A DNA stretch of 55,897 nt from Ignavibacteria bacterium (GTDB lineage Bacteria; Bacteroidota; Ignavibacteria; Ignavibacteriales; Ignavibacteriaceae), in contig JAJTBZ010000004.1 of assembly GCA_021286645.1 (NCBI GenBank), positions 1-55,897 on the forward strand, read 5' to 3'. Below are positions 12,789 through 48,618 of this stretch, one piece after another. The notes under the pieces are model-generated. The model had not been told where the DNA came from, ran no database searches, and worked only from the letters and a program-made list of their open reading frames with translations. Position 1 is the first letter of the stretch. Every line of letters begins with the position of its first letter. A program made the translations under genes and the position numbers.

Positions 12789-13859
12789 ATGAAGCAAAAT
12801 AATAAAGAGCCTGAGAATAGAAAAAAAAGAGGCACACAGATAAATCCGAAATCGCGTTTTGATACATATACGTTTGTACTGGAAAGCGATACTTCTCAAA
12901 AGTTAACGAATTTACAAGCTGCCTACATTGTTGACACAACAAAGAAAATAATAACATCAAATGAAAGCCCGGATATCCCTTTCGATATCAGTGTAAATCC
13001 ATATAGAGGGTGCGAGCATGGTTGTATTTATTGCTATGCACGCCCATATCATGAATTTATTGGTTATTCTGCCGGCCTGGAGTTCGAAACAAAAATCCTT
13101 TACAAACCCGATGCACCGAAATTATTAACCAGAGAATTATGTAAAAAAAACTATATTGTAAAGCCAATCGAATTTTGTGGTGTGACAGATGCCTACCAAC
13201 CGATAGAACAAAAAATGCAAATTACCAGGCAGTGTCTGGAAATATGTGCTGCTTTCAATAATCCAGTTGCAATAATCACTAAAAGCACATTAATAACCAG
13301 AGATATAGATATTCTTCGTACAATGGCTGCAAAAAACCTTGTAACCGTTATTTTTTCCATCACTTCACTTGATGATGATCTTACCAGGTTGATGGAACCG
13401 AGGGCGGCTACGGGGAATGCACGTCTGAAAGCACTCAATAAGCTAAGTTTGCAAGGAATTCCGGTTGGTATAAGCTTATCCCCTGTTATCCCCGGTCTTA
13501 CTGATAAAGAGATTCCCCGAATTATTCAAGAATCTGTAGCACATGGGGCAAAATTCGGCTCCTATAGTGTCGCGCGCCTGCCAGGTGCCGTGAAAGAAAT
13601 TTTCAGCGATTGGTTGCAACACAACTTCCCGGATCGGGCGCAAAAGGTATTACATGGAATTGAGAATTTTCATGGAGGTAATTTAAGCTCTTCCGAATCA
13701 GGTAAAAGATTTTCGGGCAAGGGCATCGAAGCACAGGCAATAAAGACATTGTTTTCTGTAGCTCAGAGAAAATATGGATTAAACAAAATATTCCCTTCGT
13801 TAAGAACAGATCTATTTGAAGTACCTCGATCAAATAAGCAACTCAACTTATTTGATTAA
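12789..13859 (+). CDS. PA0069-family radical SAM protein
   Basis: A 356-residue radical S-adenosylmethionine protein related to spore photoproduct lyase-like proteins (PA0069 family), whose reaction is unknown. The 4Fe-4S cluster cysteines are in 'CEHGCIYC' (Cys75, Cys79, Cys82), preceded by the family-typical 'SVNPYRG' and followed by 'YARPYHEF'. Later conserved parts are 'ITKSTLITRDIDIL', 'RLMEPRAA' and 'SLSPVIPGLTD'. Length and order fit the family. The gene is alone, divergent from the ABC operon. Its stop overlaps the stop of the convergent kinase gene (shared TTAA at 13856-13859), with no terminator hairpin between them. Confidence 0.94.
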   Translation: MKQNNKEPENRKKRGTQINPKSRFDTYTFVLESDTSQKLTNLQAAYIVDTTKKIITSNESPDIPFDISVNPYRGCEHGCIYCYARPYHEFIGYSAGLEFETKILYKPDAPKLLTRELCKKNYIVKPIEFCGVTDAYQPIEQKMQITRQCLEICAAFNNPVAIITKSTLITRDIDILRTMAAKNLVTVIFSITSLDDDLTRLMEPRAATGNARLKALNKLSLQGIPVGISLSPVIPGLTDKEIPRIIQESVAHGAKFGSYSVARLPGAVKEIFSDWLQHNFPDRAQKVLHGIENFHGGNLSSSESGKRFSGKGIEAQAIKTLFSVAQRKYGLNKIFPSLRTDLFEVPRSNKQLNLFD

Positions 13860-16147
13860 TTGGTACTTGCGAGGTAGTGGTTCAAAAACGTTACTCTAAA
13901 AACCGAACCTGAATTTTTCTCACTTGAAACAGAAATTCGTGCATTATTCAATTCGCAGTATTTACTTGACAGAGCAAGTCCTAGTCCATTTCCCTCAAAT
14001 CGTCGCGAGTATCCCTGATCTTCCTGGGCAAATGGCGTAAAGATTCTGTCTAAGTAATTTTCCGAAATTCCAACTCCTGTGTCACTCACTTCAAAGAACA
14101 AGTTATCTTCTTCATCTCTTCCCAGATGAATTCGGATTGCTCCTTTAGGAGTATATTTTACGGCATTATTGATCAGGTTATCTGCAATTTGAAAAACCGA
14201 GTATTCATCAATTACTAATCGGGTTTCCGGTGTATGGTTTACAATCTCCAGATCTAAGCCATGATTTTTACAGATTGGGTAATATATGGCATAAAGCTTT
14301 TTTATGATATTTTCATATAAATCCATTTCCTTCGGAGTAAGTTTGTAGGCACCGGCCTGCAAAGCTGACATATTAAGGATTAATTCTACAGTGCGCATCA
14401 GGCGTTTTGCTGCCCTTTGGATACTTGAGAAACCCACCAAATCTTCATTTTGCAAACGTTCCTTTAATTCCTCAGATAATATTTCTGAATAAGAAAGAAT
14501 AATATTAACCGGAGTACGTATCTCGTGCGACATTTGTGAAAGAAATTCCGTTTTCAATTTATCGGATTTTTCAGCGTTCTCTTTCGCGATCATAAGTTCA
14601 GCTTCAGTTTTTTTTGCATCAGTTATATCCCGTATAACTGCGCCGAAATAATATTCTTCATCAGAGCGAATAGGAAACATTTCCATCTCAAGAAATCGTG
14701 GATCCGGCGTAAAAGCAAAGCGTGTATCATAACAGATTTTCTTAGGTTCGAAACTACGTTCGGGCAATAATTCCTGCAATACATCTACCAGTTTAACTGA
14801 TGTATTATCCAGAGATTCTGAATGGAGAACTGCATTTCTGAGAACTTCAATAACATCATAACTAATTGAGCGTTCTTTCGGCACACCGGTTATACTCGCC
14901 AATGCGTTATTCCAAATTAATATTCCACCGTTTTGATCTGTAAGCAAAAAACCTTCTGTAGCCTGTTCAAGAAAGCCGGTAAATCGGTTGTTAAGCGATG
15001 ATAATTCGCGGTTCTTGGACAACAAAAGTTTTGTTTTTTTTCTTTTTTCACTATAGCGATAAACAAGAAAAAGGAAAAGCCCGCCAATAATAATGGCAGC
15101 AATGAAAAGAATATAAATTTTCCTCCGGGCTTCAGCGAGTTCATAAACCTTGTCACGATATTGCTTTTTCTCCTGCTCATACCGTTGATTTATGGCGCTC
15201 ATATTTTTGATATAGTCCCGCTGCAAGACTTCATCGACCAGCTTATCATATTGTTGCAACTCCCTTTCAGCGGCAGTAATATTACCCATCTTCATATAAA
15301 TCTTTTGGCGCAGTAGATAAAGTGATTTGCCAATCTCCGTGGATTTCTCAAATTTCAACATCGATAAACATGAGTCTGAATAATTGAGGGCAGCAGAAAG
15401 ATTGCCCTTAAGAAGATTTTGAGAGGCTTTCAACAAAAAGAATTTCTGACGAATATAGGTTTTATAATATCCGGAATAACTCAGTTTATTACCATCAAGA
15501 TACAACTCAGCACTATCCTTTTTTCCTAACCGGATATAGGCATCCGCCAGATCGAGTCGCGCAATCGAGGCATACGGCGCACTATATGGAGTTTCTCCGT
15601 ATATAAGCGAATTCTGAAGTGCCATGATAGCATTTTGATAGTCTTCGGTATGCAAATAAACCTCGCCAATGTTGGCAAGAATCATAGTCTTCTGCTTCTC
15701 TTCCGCAATACCAAGACTGCGGTTCAACATTACAAGTGCGGAATCATAATTTTGAAGAGTTTGATATATGATAGCAGTATTATTTAAAATTGATGAGAGC
15801 CTACTTTTTTCTTTCGGAATGCGGTTCTCCAACTCCAGACAATTGTGGTATTGTTCCAATCCTTTGTTTAATAAACCAAAGTCAGTATATGTCATAGCGC
15901 TAAAAAAATATAATCGATATTTGTTTAGAATATCATTATTTTTTTCTGCTTCCTGAGATGCAATATCAAAGTATGAAAGACTGCTTAAAGGATCATCATG
16001 TCTCAGAAGATAAATAAGCCTTAAATAAGCAGACATTCTTTCTTCGTACGAATGACGTGTAACAATTTGTCTCAGACTATCTATCTCACCGGCAAATACC
16101 ATTTGCATTAAAACAAATATGCAAACGACGCTAAATTTTATTTTCAT
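13856..16147 (-). CDS. TPR-PAS sensor histidine kinase
   Basis: Membrane histidine kinase of 763 residues. A signal peptide (about 1-19) is followed by a periplasmic array of tetratricopeptide-like helices (about 30-310, e.g. 'ALVMLNRSLGIAEE', 'DYQNAIMALQNSLIY'), a coiled-coil stretch, one membrane helix (about 344-363), a PAS domain (about 385-510), the HisKA box with His541 in 'SHEIRTPVN', and an HATPase domain with 'NNAVKYTPKG', 'SDTGVGI' and 'GNGLGLALS'. All catalytic boxes are intact. There is no receiver, so it needs a separate partner; the orphan NtrC-type regulator and the triple-receiver protein are candidates within the window. The TPR sensor suggests recognition of a peptide or envelope protein. 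Convergent 4-bp overlap with the radical SAM gene. Confidence 0.95.
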   Translation of the reverse strand: MKIKFSVVCIFVLMQMVFAGEIDSLRQIVTRHSYEERMSAYLRLIYLLRHDDPLSSLSYFDIASQEAEKNNDILNKYRLYFFSAMTYTDFGLLNKGLEQYHNCLELENRIPKEKSRLSSILNNTAIIYQTLQNYDSALVMLNRSLGIAEEKQKTMILANIGEVYLHTEDYQNAIMALQNSLIYGETPYSAPYASIARLDLADAYIRLGKKDSAELYLDGNKLSYSGYYKTYIRQKFFLLKASQNLLKGNLSAALNYSDSCLSMLKFEKSTEIGKSLYLLRQKIYMKMGNITAAERELQQYDKLVDEVLQRDYIKNMSAINQRYEQEKKQYRDKVYELAEARRKIYILFIAAIIIGGLFLFLVYRYSEKRKKTKLLLSKNRELSSLNNRFTGFLEQATEGFLLTDQNGGILIWNNALASITGVPKERSISYDVIEVLRNAVLHSESLDNTSVKLVDVLQELLPERSFEPKKICYDTRFAFTPDPRFLEMEMFPIRSDEEYYFGAVIRDITDAKKTEAELMIAKENAEKSDKLKTEFLSQMSHEIRTPVNIILSYSEILSEELKERLQNEDLVGFSSIQRAAKRLMRTVELILNMSALQAGAYKLTPKEMDLYENIIKKLYAIYYPICKNHGLDLEIVNHTPETRLVIDEYSVFQIADNLINNAVKYTPKGAIRIHLGRDEEDNLFFEVSDTGVGISENYLDRIFTPFAQEDQGYSRRFEGNGLGLALSSKYCELNNARISVSSEKNSGSVFRVTFLNHYLASTN

Positions 16148-24325: not shown

Positions 24326-27300
24326 TTATTTAGGTAACTGTTTAAGGCATTTTTCAATTGCTGCCTTAAAAGCAACCAAGTTAACAGGTTTAGTAAAAAT
24401 GTATTCAATTCCAAGATCTGAATACATTAACTGTTCACTTTTTCCCATATCACCGCTCAGCACCATAAGAGGCGGTTTTCCGGCAATTTTCAGTTTTTTA
24501 AATTCTTCTATAAACTGCACCCCGTTCATTACCGGCATAGCATGATCAGTAATAATAAGCGCAAACGAAGTTTCCTGAACTATTTCAAGTGCTTCCTTCC
24601 CATTCTTCGCGGTAATAATATCATAATCCTCAACCATATTCTTTATAATCTTGGAATATAAAATACGGTCAGTGTTACTATCGTCAACCATAAGAATAGT
24701 AGCCGAAGCTTTTGGAAGGGTAAGCGTGAATGTAGTACCGACATTATATGTACTATCAACGCGTATCTTCCCGCCATGCTTTTCAATAATTTCTTTTACT
24801 AAAGAAAGCCCAAGTCCGGAACCTTTTTCTCCGGCCGTACCGTCAGTGGTAAATTTTGATTCAACATTGAATACTTTATGAAGGTCTTCCGGTTTTATAC
24901 CTACGCCGGTATCAGAAACAGTAATCTCTTCAAACCGGGGATGTTCTGACTGCTTACTTGCAATAGTAATAGAGCCACCGGTTGCCGTAAATTTCAGGGA
25001 GTTCGATAATAAATTATTAAATATTTGCATGGTCAGATTATGATCTACAAAAACCACAATCTCTTTATCGACTTCGTTAATCAGGCTAATTCCCTTTTTC
25101 CAGGCTACACCATTGAGACCCGAAAAGATAGAATTAATAAACTCATATAAATTAATATGTTTAGGTTCAAAAACTACTCGTCCGGTTTGGATTCTGGTCC
25201 AATCCAATAAGGAGTTTACCAGGGAGAGCATATTTTGAGCGGATTCCTGAATATACTTCACATATTGGCGGGCTTCTTCAGGTGTAAGATCATCTTCTTC
25301 ACCAAGTAACAGATCGGTAAAGCCCATAATAGAACTGAAAGGTGTTCGCAAATCGTGCGAGATAATGGATATAAATTTATCCTTTGTTTCGTTAAGCTTC
25401 TGTAATTTTAACGAAGATTGTGTTAATTCATCCTCTGCCTTTTTTTGCATGGAAACATCACTAACAAGGCCAAATATCTTCATTACTTTACCTTTTCGAT
25501 CGCGGATAACATTAATTTTATTCCGGATCCAAACGATATTCCCTGACTTGTTCATTATGCGAAATTCTATTTCATCCGACCTTTTGTAATAATTGTTATA
25601 GAATCTCTTCAATCGTTCTTTAACCAATGGGAAATCATCGGGATATATTATTCGAAAGAACAACAAACCATCGGCAAGCATTTCATTCGGTGTGTAACCG
25701 GTTATTTTCTCAACTGATGAAGAATAGAAAATAGTTCTAATTTTGGAATTAATCAGTTCTGCAGTCCAAAAGAAATCATCAAGGTTTTCCGTAATACTTC
25801 TATACTTTTCCTCAGAATCTTTCAGCTTTTTTTGAGCTACTTTGCTTTCGGTAATATCTCGCGATACGACTACGAAATACATATTTTCGCCATGTGTAAA
25901 CATAGTAACTGAAAGTTCGTTCTGAAAAGTTGATCCATCCTTTCGTTTGGCTAAAAATTCATAAGTTCCTGGAGCTTCTTTCCCATTTTTCCTTCTTGAA
26001 GTGTACTCACGGATACGCGGGATCTCCTGTTCTGTAACAAGAGTGAGTACCGATTGCCCAATTAGTTCTTCTTTGCCTTTATAACCATAAAGCCTTGCAA
26101 ATGAATCATTGAGCAGAACAATCGTACCGTTTAACTCAACTCCAATCCCATCATTTGTATAATCAATAATAGAGCGCAACATTTCAAGTTCATTGGCAAT
26201 TGTGATTTTTTCCTGAATATCATTCAGATGGACAAAAAAGTGGACTTGTCCCGCGATTTCAAATGAATTAATAATACAATGAAACACCCTGTATTCGCCC
26301 GCTGATGTTCTCATTCGAACATCCGACTCAGAATTTAAATCAGCCGTGAGATTATAGAATGTTAAATCTTTCTCGACTACAAAAGCAGGATCAATTAAAT
26401 CGAGAAAATAGGACTGCTGCGAATTATTAGTCGAATTATAAAAAGTCTGCTCAAAAATAGTATTACACGATTCAATTTTTCCCGTTTCATCCATAATAGC
26501 TGCCGGCTGCTTGTTTGTGCGGAAAAAATGTTCATATCTGGTAAGTTGCTCCTGCAGATGCCTGGTTTGGTCAACTTCGTTTGTAACCTCTTTACCCATA
26601 ATAAGGCAGTACAAGCCAACATTCGGGTCTTTCTTCACCATCGATCTACAGTTTACTACTTTCACCTGGCCATTGGAGAGTATAATTTCCTGGCTAAATT
26701 GCATTTCATATGTATCAAGTAAATCGGCTATTTTGGATTCTTTTAATTCAGTAAAGACCCTGCTGATATGCTTACCAAACACTTCACTGCGCCGCAATCG
26801 AAAAGTAATTTCACTTCCTTTATTCCAGAAAATAATTCTTCCCTGGCTGTTAATTCCAATAACTGCCTCGGCAATATCCTGAGTAAATTGATAATACTGT
26901 TGTAGTTCCTGTAATTCCCGTTTGTAATTTTCAATCATCTTTAAGAATACAGTAATTTCTCTAATGGTAATAAAGAGGAACTGGATTCGGTACTTTTCTC
27001 CTACCAAAGGGATAATAGCACATTCATAAAACTCACTCCCTCCATCCTCTGCACTATTCGCCACATCCAGCATTATTTCTTCAGGTTGCCGCTTAATAAG
27101 CGCGCCTTTAAATGAAGCAACTACTTTCTGATCATACCGCGAGTCAAAAAAAGATTGGAGAAATTCGGTATCACGATTTTCAGCCGTTCTGAATAGTGCT
27201 ACTTTATTACCGCCTTGAAATAGAATTTTCCCTTCGGGGGAAACGATTAAAAATAGACTCCAGATACGGTTTAGCAGTGCTTCAAAATGCGGGTCGAAAT

Positions 27301-27706
27301 TTCTTTTACTTTTCTGTGCGAGACCTTCGGCCAGTCGAACATCTTCAACAACTACTATAGCGCCCTTGCAGTGTTCTTCTACCATATAAGGAACACATTT
27401 GAGAATAAGTTGAATTTCACCACCGGCCAGGGTTTTTTGCGAACGGATCAGCTTCTCATATATTTCACCATTTTTAATCCGGTCAAAATCTTTCTCTTCA
27501 AAATACTCTTTTTTAATAAGCTCCGGATCCGGGTCGCCTGTTTCCGGATTGACAGCAGAAGGACTAATATGGATAGTGTTACGATTAAAATAAGCTATTC
27601 TCATTTCTTCATCGAGAATAATTACTCCTACCGGTAATAGCTCCATCATCTCGGCATTATGCGATAGTTGGGTAAAAGATGTCAAAGCAGAATGAATGGT
27701 ATCCAT
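24326..27706 (-). CDS. Multi-PAS hybrid histidine kinase with C-terminal receiver
   Basis: A cytoplasmic sensor kinase of 1126 residues from ATG 27706; a TTG at 27790 would add a poorly supported extension that lacks a ribosome site. Five or so PAS-like domains are strung together in the first 760 residues (for example 'LPVGVIILDEEMRIAYFNRN', 'AVIGINSQGRIIFWNKGSE', 'DGIGVELNGTIVLLNDSFARLYGY' and 'KIRTIFYSSSVEKITGYTPNE'). They are followed by HisKA with His784 in 'SHDLRTPFS', HATPase with 'SNSLKFTATGG', 'SDTGVGI' and 'GSGLGLSLV', and a receiver with Asp in 'LIITDHAMPVMNG' and Lys in 'TKP'. All catalytic boxes are intact. The lack of membrane helices points to internal signals such as redox state or small ligands. 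It can start a phosphorelay, but no HPt protein is encoded here. Confidence 0.95.
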   Translation of the reverse strand: MDTIHSALTSFTQLSHNAEMMELLPVGVIILDEEMRIAYFNRNTIHISPSAVNPETGDPDPELIKKEYFEEKDFDRIKNGEIYEKLIRSQKTLAGGEIQLILKCVPYMVEEHCKGAIVVVEDVRLAEGLAQKSKRNFDPHFEALLNRIWSLFLIVSPEGKILFQGGNKVALFRTAENRDTEFLQSFFDSRYDQKVVASFKGALIKRQPEEIMLDVANSAEDGGSEFYECAIIPLVGEKYRIQFLFITIREITVFLKMIENYKRELQELQQYYQFTQDIAEAVIGINSQGRIIFWNKGSEITFRLRRSEVFGKHISRVFTELKESKIADLLDTYEMQFSQEIILSNGQVKVVNCRSMVKKDPNVGLYCLIMGKEVTNEVDQTRHLQEQLTRYEHFFRTNKQPAAIMDETGKIESCNTIFEQTFYNSTNNSQQSYFLDLIDPAFVVEKDLTFYNLTADLNSESDVRMRTSAGEYRVFHCIINSFEIAGQVHFFVHLNDIQEKITIANELEMLRSIIDYTNDGIGVELNGTIVLLNDSFARLYGYKGKEELIGQSVLTLVTEQEIPRIREYTSRRKNGKEAPGTYEFLAKRKDGSTFQNELSVTMFTHGENMYFVVVSRDITESKVAQKKLKDSEEKYRSITENLDDFFWTAELINSKIRTIFYSSSVEKITGYTPNEMLADGLLFFRIIYPDDFPLVKERLKRFYNNYYKRSDEIEFRIMNKSGNIVWIRNKINVIRDRKGKVMKIFGLVSDVSMQKKAEDELTQSSLKLQKLNETKDKFISIISHDLRTPFSSIMGFTDLLLGEEDDLTPEEARQYVKYIQESAQNMLSLVNSLLDWTRIQTGRVVFEPKHINLYEFINSIFSGLNGVAWKKGISLINEVDKEIVVFVDHNLTMQIFNNLLSNSLKFTATGGSITIASKQSEHPRFEEITVSDTGVGIKPEDLHKVFNVESKFTTDGTAGEKGSGLGLSLVKEIIEKHGGKIRVDSTYNVGTTFTLTLPKASATILMVDDSNTDRILYSKIIKNMVEDYDIITAKNGKEALEIVQETSFALIITDHAMPVMNGVQFIEEFKKLKIAGKPPLMVLSGDMGKSEQLMYSDLGIEYIFTKPVNLVAFKAAIEKCLKQLPK

Positions 27707-27803
27707 ATAGCTGTTGTAGTTTATGATAAATATAAACCTTAATATACTAATCAAACCTTTTTTTTGATAGTAAAATCGGTTTGATTCCAAAGGTTTTCAG
27801 ATT

Positions 27804-41861: not shown

Positions 41862-41889
41862 GAGGGCCTTTACCGGCCCTCTTTTTTTT
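41862..41889 (+). terminator. Strong Rho-independent terminator after the PpiC-like gene
   Basis: Seven-base stem GAGGGCC (41862-41868) and GGCCCTC (41875-41881) with loop TTTACC and eight T (41882-41889). Textbook form, directly after the stop. Confidence 0.93.
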
Positions 41890-42038: not shown

Positions 42039-44387
42039 ATGCAAACATCGAATTTGAAATTTATCGCCCGATATAATTCTCTCAGAGTATTGGCTAAAAA
42101 CTCTGCCCAGGAATTTGTTGAACAATTCTGCGATTTTGTCTGCGAAGAATTCAACTTTCAAAGTACCGCCCTATTCCGGGTTATTCATAACAGGCGCCTG
42201 AATTTCCTCGGAAAATCGACGAATGCAAAAAGGACGTTGGGGCAAATGCCAATATCCGAATGTGTTGTTTGCAAACTTATTCAGGCTGATTGTGAGAATT
42301 TTGATTTTCACGTCGATCAGAAATGCTCAATTTCTATCAGTGATTCTGCCGGTTATGAAGCTTGCTTATGCTTAAAGACTGCTCATGGTGAAAAGTATAT
42401 TCTTAAGCTCGCTGATAATACACCTTTTACTCCTGCGGATAGGGATGTATTCAGATTGACCGGCGAGTTTCTGATCTCACTGCTCGAACTCCACAATACT
42501 TCAGAAAAGGCCCTCAGCAGCCAATTCCCGAAACTTGTAGCAGAAGCTGCCAATGAGTTCAGAACCCCGACTAACAGCATTGTCGGTTTTGCTTCGCTGT
42601 TAAATGATGATCAACTTACACATGCCCAGCAGGAGTATGTAGGCACTTTACGGAGCAATGCACAAAAATTGCTTGGACTTATTAATGATCTCATCGACTT
42701 TGCAAAGGCAGAGGCTTCACTGTTAAATGCTAATTTTGCACCTATTGCAATTGGAACATTTATCGATGAAACCATTGCAATGCTTTCAGAACGTATACCG
42801 GCAAACACTGTTCAGTTCTCAAAATCTATTGATACAAATATGCCGGCATCTGTGCGAATTGATGCAATGAAAATACGTTACATACTTTCGCAATTTATGA
42901 GTCTTTTGGTAAATGCAACTGAATCCGGAAATGTATCCGTTAATGTTGGCATGAATGAACAAGGCAGAATGACATTTCGAATGGTTAATTCCGGCAATAC
43001 TGTTCATATTGCAAATTTACAGCAGATAATATTAGGCAATCAGGCAATTGATGAGAAACTTTCAAAGGTCCTGCCTCAATCAATGCTATCCTTACCATTG
43101 GCAAAAAAATTCATTGATATTCTTGATGGAAGTGTTGAAGTAGTTTCTTCAGCATTAAAAGGCACCTCTATTTCCTTCCAGCTTCCAACTGAATCGATGA
43201 GCCCTCTTGAATCAAAAATTAGTGCTTTACCAAAACCGATTGGTAAAAATAAAGTTCTCGTCATAGAAGACGATTACGCAACCTCGAAACTGCTAAGCAA
43301 TTATCTGAACAAATGGGGCTACGAACCACATATAATCAATTCCGGTATCAAAGCCTTGGAATTATTAAAGAAAGAACGTTTCCTATCCGTAATTATGGAT
43401 ATAGTTTTACCTGATATAAACGGCCTAGAGTTATTGAAACGTATTCGGGAAGATGATAATTCCAAATATACTCCGGTGATTGTATGCTCGGTTGAAGCTG
43501 AACAGCAAAAAGCCTTCTTAATGGGAGCTGTGGAATATTTCGTAAAGCCTATACGGTACAAAGATCTTGTAGAAGTGCTTACCAGCTATAAGCTGAAAAA
43601 AGATTCCAACATTCTTTGCGTTGATGACGACGTTCCTACTTTGAACCTCGTTAAAGGCGCAATTGAAAGCGTAGGCTTTAATGCGGTAGCAGAGTCACAC
43701 AGTTCGCGAGTAATGGACATTATCAAAGATATGCAGCTTGACCTGGCAATTGTTGATCTTGACATGCCGGAGTTGAATGGTTTTGAATTAATAAAATTAA
43801 TTAAATCGCATCCCCGATTTACTAACTTGCCGATCATTATTTATACCGGTAAAGAAAATTTTGATGATGATTTACGAAAAATCGATGGACTATTCACGGA
43901 GCTATTAAGTAAACGCAGTACGAAGATTGAAGATCTTGCTGACACAATTAACTCAATGATTAACAGGTATGAACAACCTTCTGCACCTGAAGAAGTTAAA
44001 GCGGCTGTTAGCGACGTACCAAAAATACTATTGGTTGAAGACTATAAGCATTCACAGATAATTGTAACGCGTCTGTTAAAGAAAAATGGATTCACATCCG
44101 TAGTTGTTGTAGAGAATGGCGCTGAAGCAGTTGACCAGGCACGCCAACAGCATTTCGATATCATATTAATGGATATGCAGATGCCTGTTATGAATGGCTT
44201 TGAAGCCACCGAAAGAATCAGGCAAACTCCTGAATATAAAGAAACACCTATAATTGCTCTTACTGCTTTTGCCATGAAGGGTGACAAAGAGAAATGCCTT
44301 GAGGCAGGTGCTACAGATTATATACCTAAACCTATTGATAGTGTTGAATTTATTGAAAAAGTAAAACACTATACGACTAATAAATAA
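42039..44387 (+). CDS. Pseudo-histidine kinase with three receiver domains
   Basis: Cytoplasmic 782-residue signalling protein. A GAF-like N-terminus (about 1-155) is followed by a HisKA/HATPase-like body (about 160-395), then three receivers with Asp454, Asp573 and Asp712. The kinase body is degenerate: the usual 'SHE.RTP' reads 'ANEFRTPTN', so the phospho-acceptor His is Asn172 (codon 42552-42554). The G1 box 'DTG.G' reads 'VNSGNTV', and the G2 box 'G.GLGL' is 'QSMLSLPL'. The N-box Asn is kept in 'LVNATESG'. Receivers 1 and 3 have the canonical Lys ('VKPI', 'PKPI'); receiver 2 has 'SKRS' instead. It therefore cannot autophosphorylate in the ordinary way and may be a phosphate sink, scaffold or relay partner for another kinase. 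It is followed by gltX after 23 bp. Confidence 0.93.
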   Translation: MQTSNLKFIARYNSLRVLAKNSAQEFVEQFCDFVCEEFNFQSTALFRVIHNRRLNFLGKSTNAKRTLGQMPISECVVCKLIQADCENFDFHVDQKCSISISDSAGYEACLCLKTAHGEKYILKLADNTPFTPADRDVFRLTGEFLISLLELHNTSEKALSSQFPKLVAEAANEFRTPTNSIVGFASLLNDDQLTHAQQEYVGTLRSNAQKLLGLINDLIDFAKAEASLLNANFAPIAIGTFIDETIAMLSERIPANTVQFSKSIDTNMPASVRIDAMKIRYILSQFMSLLVNATESGNVSVNVGMNEQGRMTFRMVNSGNTVHIANLQQIILGNQAIDEKLSKVLPQSMLSLPLAKKFIDILDGSVEVVSSALKGTSISFQLPTESMSPLESKISALPKPIGKNKVLVIEDDYATSKLLSNYLNKWGYEPHIINSGIKALELLKKERFLSVIMDIVLPDINGLELLKRIREDDNSKYTPVIVCSVEAEQQKAFLMGAVEYFVKPIRYKDLVEVLTSYKLKKDSNILCVDDDVPTLNLVKGAIESVGFNAVAESHSSRVMDIIKDMQLDLAIVDLDMPELNGFELIKLIKSHPRFTNLPIIIYTGKENFDDDLRKIDGLFTELLSKRSTKIEDLADTINSMINRYEQPSAPEEVKAAVSDVPKILLVEDYKHSQIIVTRLLKKNGFTSVVVVENGAEAVDQARQQHFDIILMDMQMPVMNGFEATERIRQTPEYKETPIIALTAFAMKGDKEKCLEAGATDYIPKPIDSVEFIEKVKHYTTNK

Positions 44388-44410
44388 TTAATGAACAGGC
44401 TCTTAAATTT

Positions 44411-45865
44411 ATGATACATGAAACTCCTCGCGTTCGTTTTGCACCCAGCCCAACCGGTTATTTGCATGTTGGGGGTTTGCGAACTGCATTGTACAATTAT
44501 CTTTTCGCGAAAAAAAATAATGGCACATTTATACTCAGGATTGAAGATACCGACAGGAAACGATTTGTTGAAGGCGCGGTAGAAAACCTCATTAATTCAT
44601 TACAGTGGTGTGGTTTAGAATTTGACGAGGGTCCGGGAAAAGAAGGATCGTATGGCCCGTATATTCAATCGGAACGATTGGATATTTATAAAAATCTTTG
44701 TAATGAACTTGTTTCTGCGGGTAAGGCTTATTATTGTTTCTGTACAGCTGAACGGCTTGACGCGCTTCGACAGGAGCAGGAGCAAAACGGTAAGCAGAAA
44801 ATGTACGATAAACATTGCTGCAATCTAAGCGATTCGGAAGTGCAGGCAAATCTTGCGAACAATCTCCCCTACGTAATCCGCATGAATATTGCTCCCGGTT
44901 TAGTAGTAGAATTTGATGATGTTATACGAGGTCATATTTCATTTAATTCTGAAATAATTGATGACCAGGTTTTACTGAAGAGTGACGGGTTTCCAACATA
45001 TCATCTTGCAAATGTCATCGATGATCATATGATGAAAATTACTCATGTTATCAGAGGTGAAGAGTGGCTTCCATCTACGCCCAAGCATGTTCTGTTATAT
45101 CAATCATTTGGCTGGGAAGTGCCGCAATTTGCCCATTTACCGTTACTGCTTAATCCTGATCGTACTAAGCTCAGTAAGCGTCAGGGCGATGTTGCCGTTG
45201 AAGACTATCGTTCCAAAGGATATCTGAAAGAGGCTCTGGTTAATTTTGTTGCTCTACTTGGTTGGACTGCAGGCGATGATCGGGAATTCTATTATCTAGA
45301 TGAATTGATCGAAGCTTTTAGCCTGGAACGGGTTAACAAATCGGGTGCAGTATTTGATTTACAAAAACTGTCCTGGTTGAATGCAGAGCACTTACGAAAA
45401 AAAACCTCTGAAGAATTATTACCATTTTTGCGCGAAACCATGGCAGAGAAAAATATTCCGGCAGAGAAATTTACGGATAACTATCTCACCCATGTTATTG
45501 ACTCAATGCGCGAAAGAGTACAGTTTATTTATGAAATCGTCGAAAATGCCCCATATTTCTTTTCTGCACCCCAGGTATTCGATGAATCGGTAATAGCAAA
45601 AAGATGGAATGAAAAAACACCGGAATTAATGCAACAACTTGTTGAAGAGTTTTCAAAACTTTCTTCAAATGAAAAGGAAGGGTTTGAAACTGCACTGAAA
45701 GTAGTTGCTGAAAAATATACAGTTAAAACTGCGGAGTTGATTCACCCCCTTCGGCTATCCTTATCAGGTGTCGGCGGCGGCCCCGGAGTGTATGATATCG
45801 CAATGATACTGGGAAAAGAAGAATCGATAAACAGAATTAAAACAGCTATAGAGAAAATAAAGTAA
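44411..45865 (+). CDS. gltX: Glutamate--tRNA ligase
   Basis: Class I aminoacyl-tRNA synthetase charging tRNA-Glu, 484 residues. The N-terminal '[21 protein letters not shown]' holds the HIGH-type signature (HVGG), 'RIEDTDRKR' follows, and the KMSKS-type loop reads 'KLSKRQGD'. A possible zinc-binding set, '[10 protein letters not shown]' and 'YDKHCCN', sits in between. The C-terminal anticodon-binding half is complete. It is immediately followed by glnS (5-bp gap). With a dedicated GlnRS present, this enzyme is expected to be discriminating and not to mischarge tRNA-Gln. Confidence 0.97.
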
Positions 45866-45870
45866 TTATT

Positions 45871-47571
45871 ATGGAAGAAACTACCAACGCAGTTAATGAA
45901 TCGAAGGCAACTAACTTCATTCATGAAATCATTGAAGATGATATTAATAATAAAAAATATTCTACACGAATTAATACCCGCTTCCCACCCGAACCAAATG
46001 GGTACTTGCACATCGGTCATGCAAAATCCATTTGCTTGAATTTTGGCATAGCGGAGAAATATGATGGCTGGTGTAACCTTCGTTTTGATGATACAAACCC
46101 TTCGAAAGAAGAAGTTGAATATGTAGAATCTATTAAAGAAGATGTACATTGGCTCGGTTTCGATTGGGGAGGTCGTGAATATTATGCCTCTGACTATTTT
46201 CAGCAGTTATACGATTGGGCTGAAGAATTAATTAAACAAGGTAAAGCGTATGTTTGTGAGCTTACTCCAGAACAAATGCGCGAATACCGGGGTACATTAA
46301 CAGAGCCTGGTAAAGAAAGCCCTTATCGGAATAGAACAAGTGAAGAAAACCTGGATCTGTTCAGACGAATGAAAGCCGGGGAATTTCCCGATGGGTCAAA
46401 AACTTTGCGCGCTAAAATCGATATGGCATCTCCCAATGTAAATTTTAGAGATCCTATCCTCTACCGTATTATGCATCAGGAGCACCACCGCACGGGCGAT
46501 GCCTGGTGTATTTATCCAATGTATGACTGGGCACACGGCCAAAGTGACTCTATTGAAAATATCACCCACTCAATTTGTACATTAGAATTCGAAAATCACA
46601 GACCATTATATGATTGGTTCATTAATCAGCTTTCAATTCATCATCCACAGCAGATTGAATTTGCGCGATTAAATCTTTCATATACCGTAATGAGTAAAAG
46701 AAAATTATTGCAATTAGTGAATGACGGTGATGTAGCCGGTTGGGACGATCCTCGTATGCCAACCATTTCCGGGCTTCGCAGACGCGGATATACACCTGAA
46801 TCAATTCGTAATTTCGCCGAAAAAATCGGTGTCGCTCGCCGGGATAATGTTATCGATGTTGCATTGTTAGAGAATTGTATTCGGGAAGATCTGAACAAAC
46901 GCGCGCTACGCCGGATGGCAGTTTTACAACCATTGAAGGTTGTTATCGATAATTATCCGGAAGGACAGATAGAGACTTTAGAAGCTATTAATAATCCTGA
47001 AGATTCGACTGCAGGAACACGACAGATTGAATTTTCACGAGAGTTGTTCATTGAGCAGGATGACTTTATGGAAATCCCCCCTGCACAATATTATCGCTTA
47101 TCCGTAGGCAAGGAAGTACGCCTTCGCTACGCGTATATTGTTAAATGTACCGGATTTGAGAAAGATGAAAATGGCAATATCACTGTAGTACATTGCGAAT
47201 ACGATCCCGAAACTAAAAGTGGTTCAGGTACCGCGAGTAAGAAGAAAGTTAAAGGAACTATTCACTGGGTGGCTGCGCATAATGCCGCTCATGCAGAAGT
47301 TAGGTTGTATGATAGATTGTTTAACGTAGAAGATCCTGCCGGCGTTAAAGATGTTGACTGGAAAGCAACCATCAACAATAACTCACTTGTAGTTCTCCCG
47401 AATTCTTATGTAGAACCATCTTTATTAACAACTCAGCCGGGCGATAAATTTCAGTTTGAACGCCTGGGCTATTTCTGTACCGATAAAGAAAGCCCGACAG
47501 ATAAACCTGTGTTTAACAGGACAGTTACGTTACGTGATACCTGGGCTAAAATAGAAAAGAAGAACAATTAA
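45871..47571 (+). CDS. glnS: Glutamine--tRNA ligase
   Basis: Class I synthetase that charges tRNA-Gln directly, 566 residues (E. coli GlnRS has 554). '[16 protein letters not shown]' gives HIGH at 47-50, '[10 protein letters not shown]' follows, and the KMSKS loop is '[11 protein letters not shown]'. The two C-terminal beta-barrels of the GlnRS anticodon-binding domain are present ('[17 protein letters not shown]' and '[21 protein letters not shown]'). Presence of GlnRS suggests no need for the transamidation route to Gln-tRNA. The close pairing with gltX gives both Glu/Gln enzymes in one operon. A hairpin follows the stop. Confidence 0.97.
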
Positions 47572-47579
47572 GATATGAG

Positions 47580-47609
47580 GCCGGATAGGCAAATTGCTTA
47601 TCCGGCTTT
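47580..47609 (+). terminator. Probable terminator after glnS
   Basis: Stem GCCGGATA (47580-47587) and TATCCGGC (47599-47606) with an 11-base loop that pairs further (GC/GC), followed by TTTAATATATTT. The T tract is interrupted. It lies between the convergent glnS and murB stops. Confidence 0.55.
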
Positions 47610-48618
47610 AATATATTTGTACTTCCGGTTCAATTTTTATTTGGAATTTCTTTTCTACGGTTTCAATAATTTTACGTGCTAAATCGAGAATCTCACCGGC
47701 TGTAGCATTTCCATAATTCACTAAAACCAATGGTTGTTTATGAAATGTTCCTGTATTCCCCATTCTGACTCCTTTCCAACCAGATTTCTCAATCAGCCAG
47801 GCAGCAGAAATTTTAACCATGTTCATCTCTGTAAAACCAGGAATGTCAGGAAATTCCCTTTGCAGTTTTTTATAGTCATCCAGTGGAATTATTGGATTTT
47901 TAAAGAAACTCCCGGCATTGCCCAAGATATCCGGATCGGGTAATTTATTTGTCCGAATACTAAGTATGGCTTCACGAAGCGCAACAGGAGTCAACTCCGG
48001 TGTAGCAACAGACTGTAATTTTTCAGCCAGAGAAGGATAGGATACGTTGGGAGTTGGAATTTTGGATAGTTTTATCTGTATAGAATGGATAAAGGTTCTG
48101 TTCCTCAGTTCATTTTTAAAGATGCTATCCCGATAACCGAAGCAGCAATCTGCTTTTTTTAATTCTCTACATTCAGCGGTCTTAAAATCAAAGAAATTAA
48201 CTGATTCAATTACTTGTTCAACTTCCTGACCATAAGCCCCAATATTTTGAATAGGTGCCGCTCCACAGGTACCCGGGATACCTGACATATTTTCAATTCC
48301 CCAATAACCGTGAGAGGCGCAGTAAGCTGTCAATTCATCCCATAACGTACCGGAATGAACAAGAATACTAACAAAATCATCGGTCTCCCCTACCAAATCG
48401 ATACCCTGAATTTTATTAATCAGTACAGTTCCCGGCCAATCCTCTTTAAATAGAACATTACTTCCCCCACCTAAAATAACAATAGGGTGTGTAAGTTTGT
48501 TATTAGTAATCAGGGTAAGGAATTGCTGAAGCGATTCAATCTCAACCAAAGCGGTTGCCCTGGAAGCAACATGAAAAGTATGATATTTGGATAAATCGAT
48601 ATTTGTATATGATTTCAT
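47608..48618 (-). CDS. murB: UDP-N-acetylenolpyruvoylglucosamine reductase
   Basis: FAD/NADPH enzyme of peptidoglycan precursor synthesis (UDP-MurNAc formation), 336 residues from ATG 48618. A TTG at 48648 would begin inside the terminator hairpin of the preceding gene and is rejected. It is of the E. coli-like type I form: 'ILGGGSNVLF' binds FAD, 'GIPGTCGAAPIQNIGAYGQEV' and 'CCFGYRDSIFK' carry the Tyr/Arg region, 'LGNAGSFFKNP' holds the catalytic Ser, and the final 'IEPEVQIY' holds the conserved Glu. It appears to be a single-gene unit, convergent with glnS. Confidence 0.96.
   Translation of the reverse strand: MKSYTNIDLSKYHTFHVASRATALVEIESLQQFLTLITNNKLTHPIVILGGGSNVLFKEDWPGTVLINKIQGIDLVGETDDFVSILVHSGTLWDELTAYCASHGYWGIENMSGIPGTCGAAPIQNIGAYGQEVEQVIESVNFFDFKTAECRELKKADCCFGYRDSIFKNELRNRTFIHSIQIKLSKIPTPNVSYPSLAEKLQSVATPELTPVALREAILSIRTNKLPDPDILGNAGSFFKNPIIPLDDYKKLQREFPDIPGFTEMNMVKISAAWLIEKSGWKGVRMGNTGTFHKQPLVLVNYGNATAGEILDLARKIIETVEKKFQIKIEPEVQIY

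Follow-up and report, generated by a model that had tools for sequence, protein, structure and literature searches.

The window analyzed here is a 55,897-nucleotide stretch of an Ignavibacteria bacterium genome (GenBank assembly GCA_021286645.1, contig JAJTBZ010000004.1; GTDB family Ignavibacteriaceae, order Ignavibacteriales, phylum Bacteroidota). The gene under study is an open reading frame (ORF) of 782 uninterrupted codons at positions 42039-44387 of the forward strand, on which the domains, residues, hairpins and neighboring genes located below also lie. On the basis of the ORF list, Pfam and an AlphaFold2 model, its product consists of a GAF domain, a pseudo-HisKA domain, a pseudo-HATPase domain and three receivers (REC). 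The GAF-fold input domain (amino acids 1-155; 42039-42503) is followed by a HisKA domain without its phospho-acceptor (42534-42716), which Pfam places at amino acids 166-226 with an E-value of 1.5e-12. Next comes a degenerate HATPase_c domain (42861-43193) that scores 25.0 bits against a Pfam cut-off of 26.4, i.e. 1.4 bits short. Response_reg was matched in three stretches, namely receiver 1 (43245-43586, with Asp454 at 43398-43400), receiver 2 (43605-43958, Asp573 at 43755-43757) and receiver 3 (44019-44366, Asp712 at 44172-44174). Pfam found no Hpt domain in the protein. The HisKA, HATPase_c and REC architecture is present in both the Pfam matches and the model, and in the latter the HATPase fold has a predicted local distance difference test (pLDDT) score of mostly 85-93 except in the lid region.

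Judged by its residues, the window protein is almost certainly a dead kinase. Asn172 (codon AAT, 42552-42554) stands in frame at the phospho-acceptor position, as the original prediction had read it from the DNA alone, and the three receiver aspartates and the lack of an HPt domain were also as it described. We scored seven kinase landmarks (H172, N289, D317, G319, G321, G349 and G351), of which the window protein retains one, Gly319 of the G1 box; the N-box Asn, the D-box Asp, the other G1 glycine and the two of G2 have been lost together with the His. The earlier claim that the G boxes are lost therefore needs a small correction: the degenerate strings VNSGNTV (316-322) and QSMLSLPL (347-354) were found as quoted, but one G1 glycine remains. 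Of all PDB sequences, the hybrid kinase 6qrj, which we take to be ShkA, matches best (E 2.3e-37); in this alignment, the H-box His lies opposite Asn172, the N-box Asn opposite a Leu and the D-box Asp opposite an Asn. The same genome served as a control. It contains 92 HisKA matches at E <=1e-5, and the acceptor position could be read in all but L260: 89 have His, one has Gln and one, the window protein, has Asn. The Gln belongs to L252 (G000:C72:35371-35771; AQDLRTP), a second HisKA domain of this genome without the acceptor His. Alignment A2 included 30 unrelated hybrid kinases, taken from the 77 non-orthologous loci of the contig scan described below; all 26 with letters at this position have His.

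The protein belongs to a family that is conserved in single copy across its order. Within the order, 144 of 164 genomes contain the receiver cassette, always as a single match (E <=1e-100), as do 103 of the 109 better assemblies. A clear orthologue was present in 57 of the 59 genomes searched, including the genome of the window itself; the other two (G015, G025) yielded paralogue-level matches only. No orthologue was found outside the order in a phylum sample, where all 24 matching genomes of 247 (E <=1e-90) fall inside it. Likewise, a profile of the N-terminal domain (A3) matched 57 of 294 genomes of the class, once each and always within the order. A contig scan used patterns too general for tracing orthologues: among the 80 loci listed, three are true orthologues (L086, L087, L088) and the remaining 77 have identities of 37% or less. 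The records of these three are named Ignavibacteriaceae bacterium, Ignavibacteriae bacterium and 'Bacteroidetes bacterium', and NCBI places the Ignavibacteriaceae in the Ignavibacteriales. A search of open-licence literature, judged from titles and the beginnings of abstracts, found no publication on this pseudokinase family.

The orthologue alignment comprises 58 rows from 57 genomes, with the gene of G052 split over two contigs (L064, L065) and L010 left out as a duplicate of L066. Counts for the H-box refer to 56 rows, since column 172 is blank in L061 and L064, and ten loci read later stand outside them. The residues at column 172 are N in 18 rows, H in 12, Q in 11, S in 6, P in 3, L in 2 and G, F, D and E in one each. 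His is found in none of nine orthologues read outside the 56: seven of them carry N (three), Q (two), A or T (one each), and two named ones S and L. By entropy, the column ranks 59th of the 69 HisKA columns in rising order and is hence among the more variable, with columns 173, 175 and 176 conserved. None of the 56 rows retains all seven landmarks and four retain six, although in this fast-evolving domain the placement of N289 and the G boxes hinges on how the rows are aligned. In the clade of the window (16 rows; SH-like approximate likelihood ratio support 99, quick search), the His, the N-box Asn and the D-box Asp are absent throughout. On the tree, the distinction between His and any other residue requires at least six changes, three of them forced by well-supported branches, and the individual letters of the column require at least 18. 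These counts do not separate gain from loss since the root was not inferred, but since these proteins have a kinase fold, loss is the more sensible reading. The comparison confirms what was read from the window protein and extends it to a family, spread through the lineage, of hybrid kinases that erode while their receivers stay fixed. Erosion has proceeded further in L284 (G566:C26; 748 amino acids), where more of the HisKA domain has degenerated and the G2 region of the HATPase has gaps; its receiver aspartates are intact.

Selection has instead preserved the receivers, which are the slowest-evolving domains. Across 52 full rows, mean pairwise identity is 0.82 for receiver 3, the most conserved domain, 0.72 for receiver 1 and 0.69 for receiver 2; the values for HisKA (0.48), HATPase (0.34) and the N-terminus (0.33) are lower. 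The acidic pair, Asp, Thr and Lys of receivers 2 and 3 are invariant in every row with letters (Asp573 in 57 of 57 rows, Asp712 in 56 of 56). In receiver 1, Asp454 is kept in 51 of 57 rows, Ser484 in 55 and Lys503 in all 57. The residue set expected of phosphorylatable receivers is thus present in the sequences. Nonsynonymous (dN) and synonymous (dS) substitution rates were estimated for nine pairs by the Nei-Gojobori method; in several of these pairs dS was saturated or not computed, so their values can be read only as dN being much lower than dS. That relation holds for every computable domain. The ratio is at most 0.03 in the receivers where computable, except for one 11-codon fragment (0.23), and 0.00-0.26 in the HATPase domain (eight computable pairs). 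This pattern indicates that the dead core is maintained, but loosely.

One relative has kept the receivers alone. The orthologue in G058 is a 394-amino-acid ORF (L061 5007-6191; G058:C41) that carries three receivers with their aspartates, begins at the conserved linker and sits between clpP and gltX. Some 17 kb separate it from the start of the contig, and no runs of N occur. When the front halves of nine family members were searched against this stretch with tblastn, only chance-level pieces (E >=0.11) were found besides short stretches matching the linker that precedes the first receiver (best E 0.003). The N-terminal profile that matched 57 genomes elsewhere had no match in this genome. 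Between G058 and its two congeners, receiver dN is 0.07-0.13 and dS 1.1-3.0. The gene apparently arose by loss of the GAF-HisKA-HATPase half, and of all the observations it points most strongly to the receivers, rather than the transmitter, as bearers of the conserved function. The core of the original prediction was that loss of the His and of the ATP-site residues, with retention of the receivers, reflects selection for a non-kinase job. The orthologues support it. The counter-case named with the prediction was orthologues with an intact His and G boxes: 12 of 56 have the His, two have H, N and D, and none has all seven landmarks. In addition, dN is far below dS and one relative consists of the receivers alone.

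Neither the cysteine-rich GAF domain nor the phosphatase signature described next formed part of that prediction. As receivers filled the full-length fold search, the N-terminus was folded and searched alone. A model built from three sequences (pLDDT 81.4; predicted template modelling score, pTM, 0.81) supports a GAF fold for amino acids 1-155: GAF and phytochrome GAF structures head the fold lists with Z-scores of 11.7-13.3 and 134-146 of 155 residues aligned, among the 50 matches listed, and the best Foldseek E-value is 1.3e-4 (3e0y, 3p01). Pfam GAF had no match in the window protein at E up to 10, nor did it appear among the 25 families listed of the 55 that 41 members matched at an E-value limit of 1, and the N-terminal profile had no match among PDB sequences at E up to 10. 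The domain is rich in cysteine (3.5%, versus 0.5% in the rest of the protein). Cys31 (42129-42131) is conserved in 50 of 55 orthologues, Cys75 and Cys78 of a C-x2-C pair (42261-42272) in 53 and 54, Cys96 (42324-42326) in all 55 and Cys109 (42363-42365) in 51; the last four occur together in 50 rows and are joined by Cys31 in 46. A redox or metal sensor would be the natural guess from such a pattern. The fold matches include the free methionine-R-sulfoxide reductase 4mmn and also 1vhm, which is titled as a hypothetical protein but is presumably an enzyme of the same kind. The cysteine spacing of these two proteins differs from that of the window domain, and no GAF family whose cysteines are arranged likewise turned up in these searches.

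The second added feature is in the H-box. Glu173-x-x-Thr176 (42555-42566) corresponds to the E/D-x-x-T/N signature of transmitter phosphatases, and it is kept in 50 of 56 rows, including 39 of the 44 without His. The T/N position alone is kept in 52 rows, and within the window clade E/D173, R175, T/N176 and P177 are each found in all 16. According to PMC3510030, the T/N position of CrdS is essential for phosphatase activity and its His is largely dispensable: the phosphorylated response regulator has a half-life of 53.5 min without CrdS, 0.7 min with the wild type, 2.6 min with H371A and 47.6 min with N375A. By this analogy, phosphatase activity of the window protein without its His is plausible. 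RetS offers a worked-out precedent for a hybrid kinase that has degenerate G boxes and no autokinase, acts as a transmitter phosphatase and accepts phosphate on its receiver from the GacS His (PMC5992135).

Taken together, we consider it probable that this kinase-dead hybrid histidine kinase serves as a receiver hub that is charged in trans and gated by its front half. The conserved job would be done by the three phosphorylatable receivers, which are likely phosphorylated by other kinases or HPt domains. The front half consists of the GAF domain with its cysteines, a pair of dimerising HisKA helices that lack the His, and an ATPase fold lacking the ATP-site residues; it would gate the receivers, perhaps under the control of the GAF domain. 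Gating might be exerted partly through a transmitter phosphatase activity that needs no His, a role proposed because the E/D-x-x-T/N signature outlived the His. With respect to phosphate donors, the genome has five Hpt matches, each inside an ORF of 700-1279 amino acids, so there is no obvious free HPt at that threshold. A second hybrid kinase of about 1180 amino acids (ORFs of about 1150-1220) recurs in many genomes of the order; in the genome of the window, the best-scoring paralogue is a 1214-amino-acid ORF on C106 that carries an Hpt domain and is a possible phosphodonor. The original prediction had also singled out two kinases of the window as partners to try, at 13856-16147 and at 24326-27706; the ORF list gives the latter as 24326-27790, and no tie turned up between either of them and the window protein.

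The neighborhood of the gene is itself conserved. Downstream, gltX (glutamate-tRNA ligase; 44411-45865) starts 23 bp after the ORF and is followed by a glnS-like gene annotated as glutamine-tRNA ligase (45871-47571). Their shared orientation had been observed before, but regarded as an odd place for a signaling protein, which it is not: gltX lies on the same strand and starts within about 260 bp of the orthologue in 45 of 54 informative loci. It is 0.7-1.9 kb away in four more (L013, L047, L056, L064) and elsewhere or not found in five (L011, L016, L023, L025, L059); the other four of the 58 rows (L012, L045, L060, L065) have little or no downstream sequence. Terminator-like hairpins occur past the upstream PPIC-type peptidyl-prolyl isomerase gene (41862-41881) and, with a 16-bp stem, 3' of glnS (47576-47610), and a weak candidate lies inside glnS (46493-46505). 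A transcription unit at 42039-47571 bounded by the two hairpins is only suggestive, because seven terminator-like sites were found in the region where 5.0 were expected. One further locus, G033:C255:6395-9384, has two equal-scoring copies of gltX face to face with one stop each and looks like an assembly palindrome.

We also compared 31 neighborhoods: those of L086, L088 and the window, plus 28 orthologue loci for which wider flanks were taken. Beyond the pseudokinase and gltX/glnS, eight gene clusters are common to at least four of these loci, and none is an order-wide partner. The five that were annotated are trigger factor, clpP, a DPPIV-like peptidase and two whose role is not evident; no two-component gene is among the five. 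In one family of loci (f2; L047 735-4822 and similar), trigger factor, clpP and sometimes the DPPIV-like peptidase precede the pseudokinase-gltX pair, whereas the upstream gene in the window is the prolyl isomerase. A functional link to glutamyl- and glutaminyl-tRNA synthesis is possible from the conserved linkage. A fuller version of the hub, in which a cysteine-redox GAF domain gates kinase-charged receivers throughout the order, the protein is co-expressed with and acts on the synthesis of these tRNAs, and kinase residues were eroded repeatedly and the whole kinase removed once, is speculative and we rate it as unlikely.

Several observations weigh against the receiver hub as we propose it. 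The acceptor His survives in 12 of 56 orthologues, and H, N and D survive together in two (L024, L031), which leaves room for kinase activity in parts of the family. Receiver 1 has Asn in place of its Asp in 6 of 57 rows. The E/D and T/N pair is missing in 6 of 56 rows, so the phosphatase part is not general; among seven further orthologues, L286, which is close to the window, has His at position 173 and L284 has lost the motif. In PMC3510030, the CrdS residue matching E173 is needed for kinase rather than phosphatase activity and loss of the His from PleC abolishes both activities, so the signature may be structural. The phosphatases of HK853 and EnvZ are stimulated by nucleotide (PMC7005713), a stimulus that a dead ATP site would be unable to provide, and the phosphatase idea cannot hold for G058, which has no transmitter core. 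The G058 case is itself one draft assembly whose congeners (L279, L280) are full length. Domain packing cannot be read from the full-length model of the window protein (pLDDT 79.4, pTM 0.49), and no donor kinase or output turned up for this protein in the analysis.

Of the other explanations, the most serious, though still rather doubtful, is an inhibitor resembling RetS. Its dead core would associate with a single active kinase, or dock on it, keep that kinase from autophosphorylating, dephosphorylate the receiver of the kinase and siphon off its phosphate; the receivers of the window protein would then matter solely through the partner kinase. According to PMC5992135, RetS has degenerate G boxes, no autokinase and a transmitter phosphatase, and its receiver takes phosphate from the GacS His; the degenerate G boxes and kept E-x-x-T of the window protein resemble it, and E/D173 and T/N176 are each kept in all 16 rows of the window clade. 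RetS is found among the sequence matches (E 1.2e-16) and, as 6dk7, among the structure matches over HisKA and HATPase (Z 22.1, root-mean-square deviation 2.6, 215 aligned, 21% identity). However, the structural match is not specific because the active kinases GacS (7z8n; Z 21.8, deviation 9.1, 234 aligned) and ZraS (9jfj; Z 21.3, deviation 5.8, 224 aligned) also match the fold. Moreover, G058 lacks the entire core yet keeps the receivers, RetS keeps the H-box His that is lost here in 44 of 56 rows, and the input domain here is a soluble GAF. It is less likely still that the core and receivers function purely through binding and carry out no phosphoryl chemistry themselves, as a reader or scaffold of the DivL kind. 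In the pseudo-histidine kinase DivL, the output domain was co-opted for sensing the phosphorylation state of a response regulator (PMC4211667; DivL is also named in PMC12189002). The Asn of receiver 1 in six rows implies that this receiver can do without phosphorylation, but receivers 2 and 3 keep all their catalytic residues, which pure scaffolding would not need.

Two explanations that question the premise have far lower probability. Some or perhaps all members might autophosphorylate slowly or on another residue; the 12 His-bearing rows, L024 with a single G1 glycine missing out of seven landmarks, and the confidently modelled HATPase fold outside the lid are in keeping with this. We nonetheless regard it as very improbable, as H, N and D are missing in all 16 rows of the window clade. 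Local mutation, assembly error or a decaying gene can practically be dismissed. The window is one contig of a 108-contig draft assembly, but Asn172 is shared with the sister rows L009 and L066 and orthologues occur across the order; together with dN far below dS, the sister rows rule out sequencing error, a local mutation and a pseudogene.

The family may be informative beyond this locus. To our knowledge, bacterial pseudo-histidine kinases with worked-out roles are single examples, DivL and RetS. Here, one order displays staged kinase decay: some members keep H, N and D, others are devoid of all three, and one is a receiver-only protein, with the receivers nearly fixed throughout. The role of a hybrid kinase that can no longer phosphorylate thereby becomes directly testable, and the family similarly offers a test of whether a transmitter phosphatase works without its His.

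Among known systems, the window protein resembles RetS of Pseudomonas aeruginosa: both are hybrid kinases with degenerate G boxes, a kept E-x-x-T and receivers, and the lack of autokinase activity shown for RetS is to be expected here. Measured against the HExxT signature of RetS, the window protein keeps E173 and T176 and lacks the His. The family also differs from RetS in its soluble cysteine-bearing GAF domain, three receivers, order-wide conservation, gltX linkage and loss of the His in most rows. DivL of Caulobacter is likewise a pseudo-histidine kinase and has Tyr, also not His, at the acceptor position. Unlike the window protein, it has PAS sensors and no receivers, and the response regulator that it reads is a separate protein. 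ShkA, BarA and ArcB share the order of HisKA, HATPase and receivers but, as canonical hybrid kinases, keep their kinase residues; NCBIfam equivalog scores of the window protein are far under the cut-offs (for BarA, 283.7 of 890 bits). Three receivers are also found in RodK of Myxococcus xanthus, which is an active hybrid kinase.
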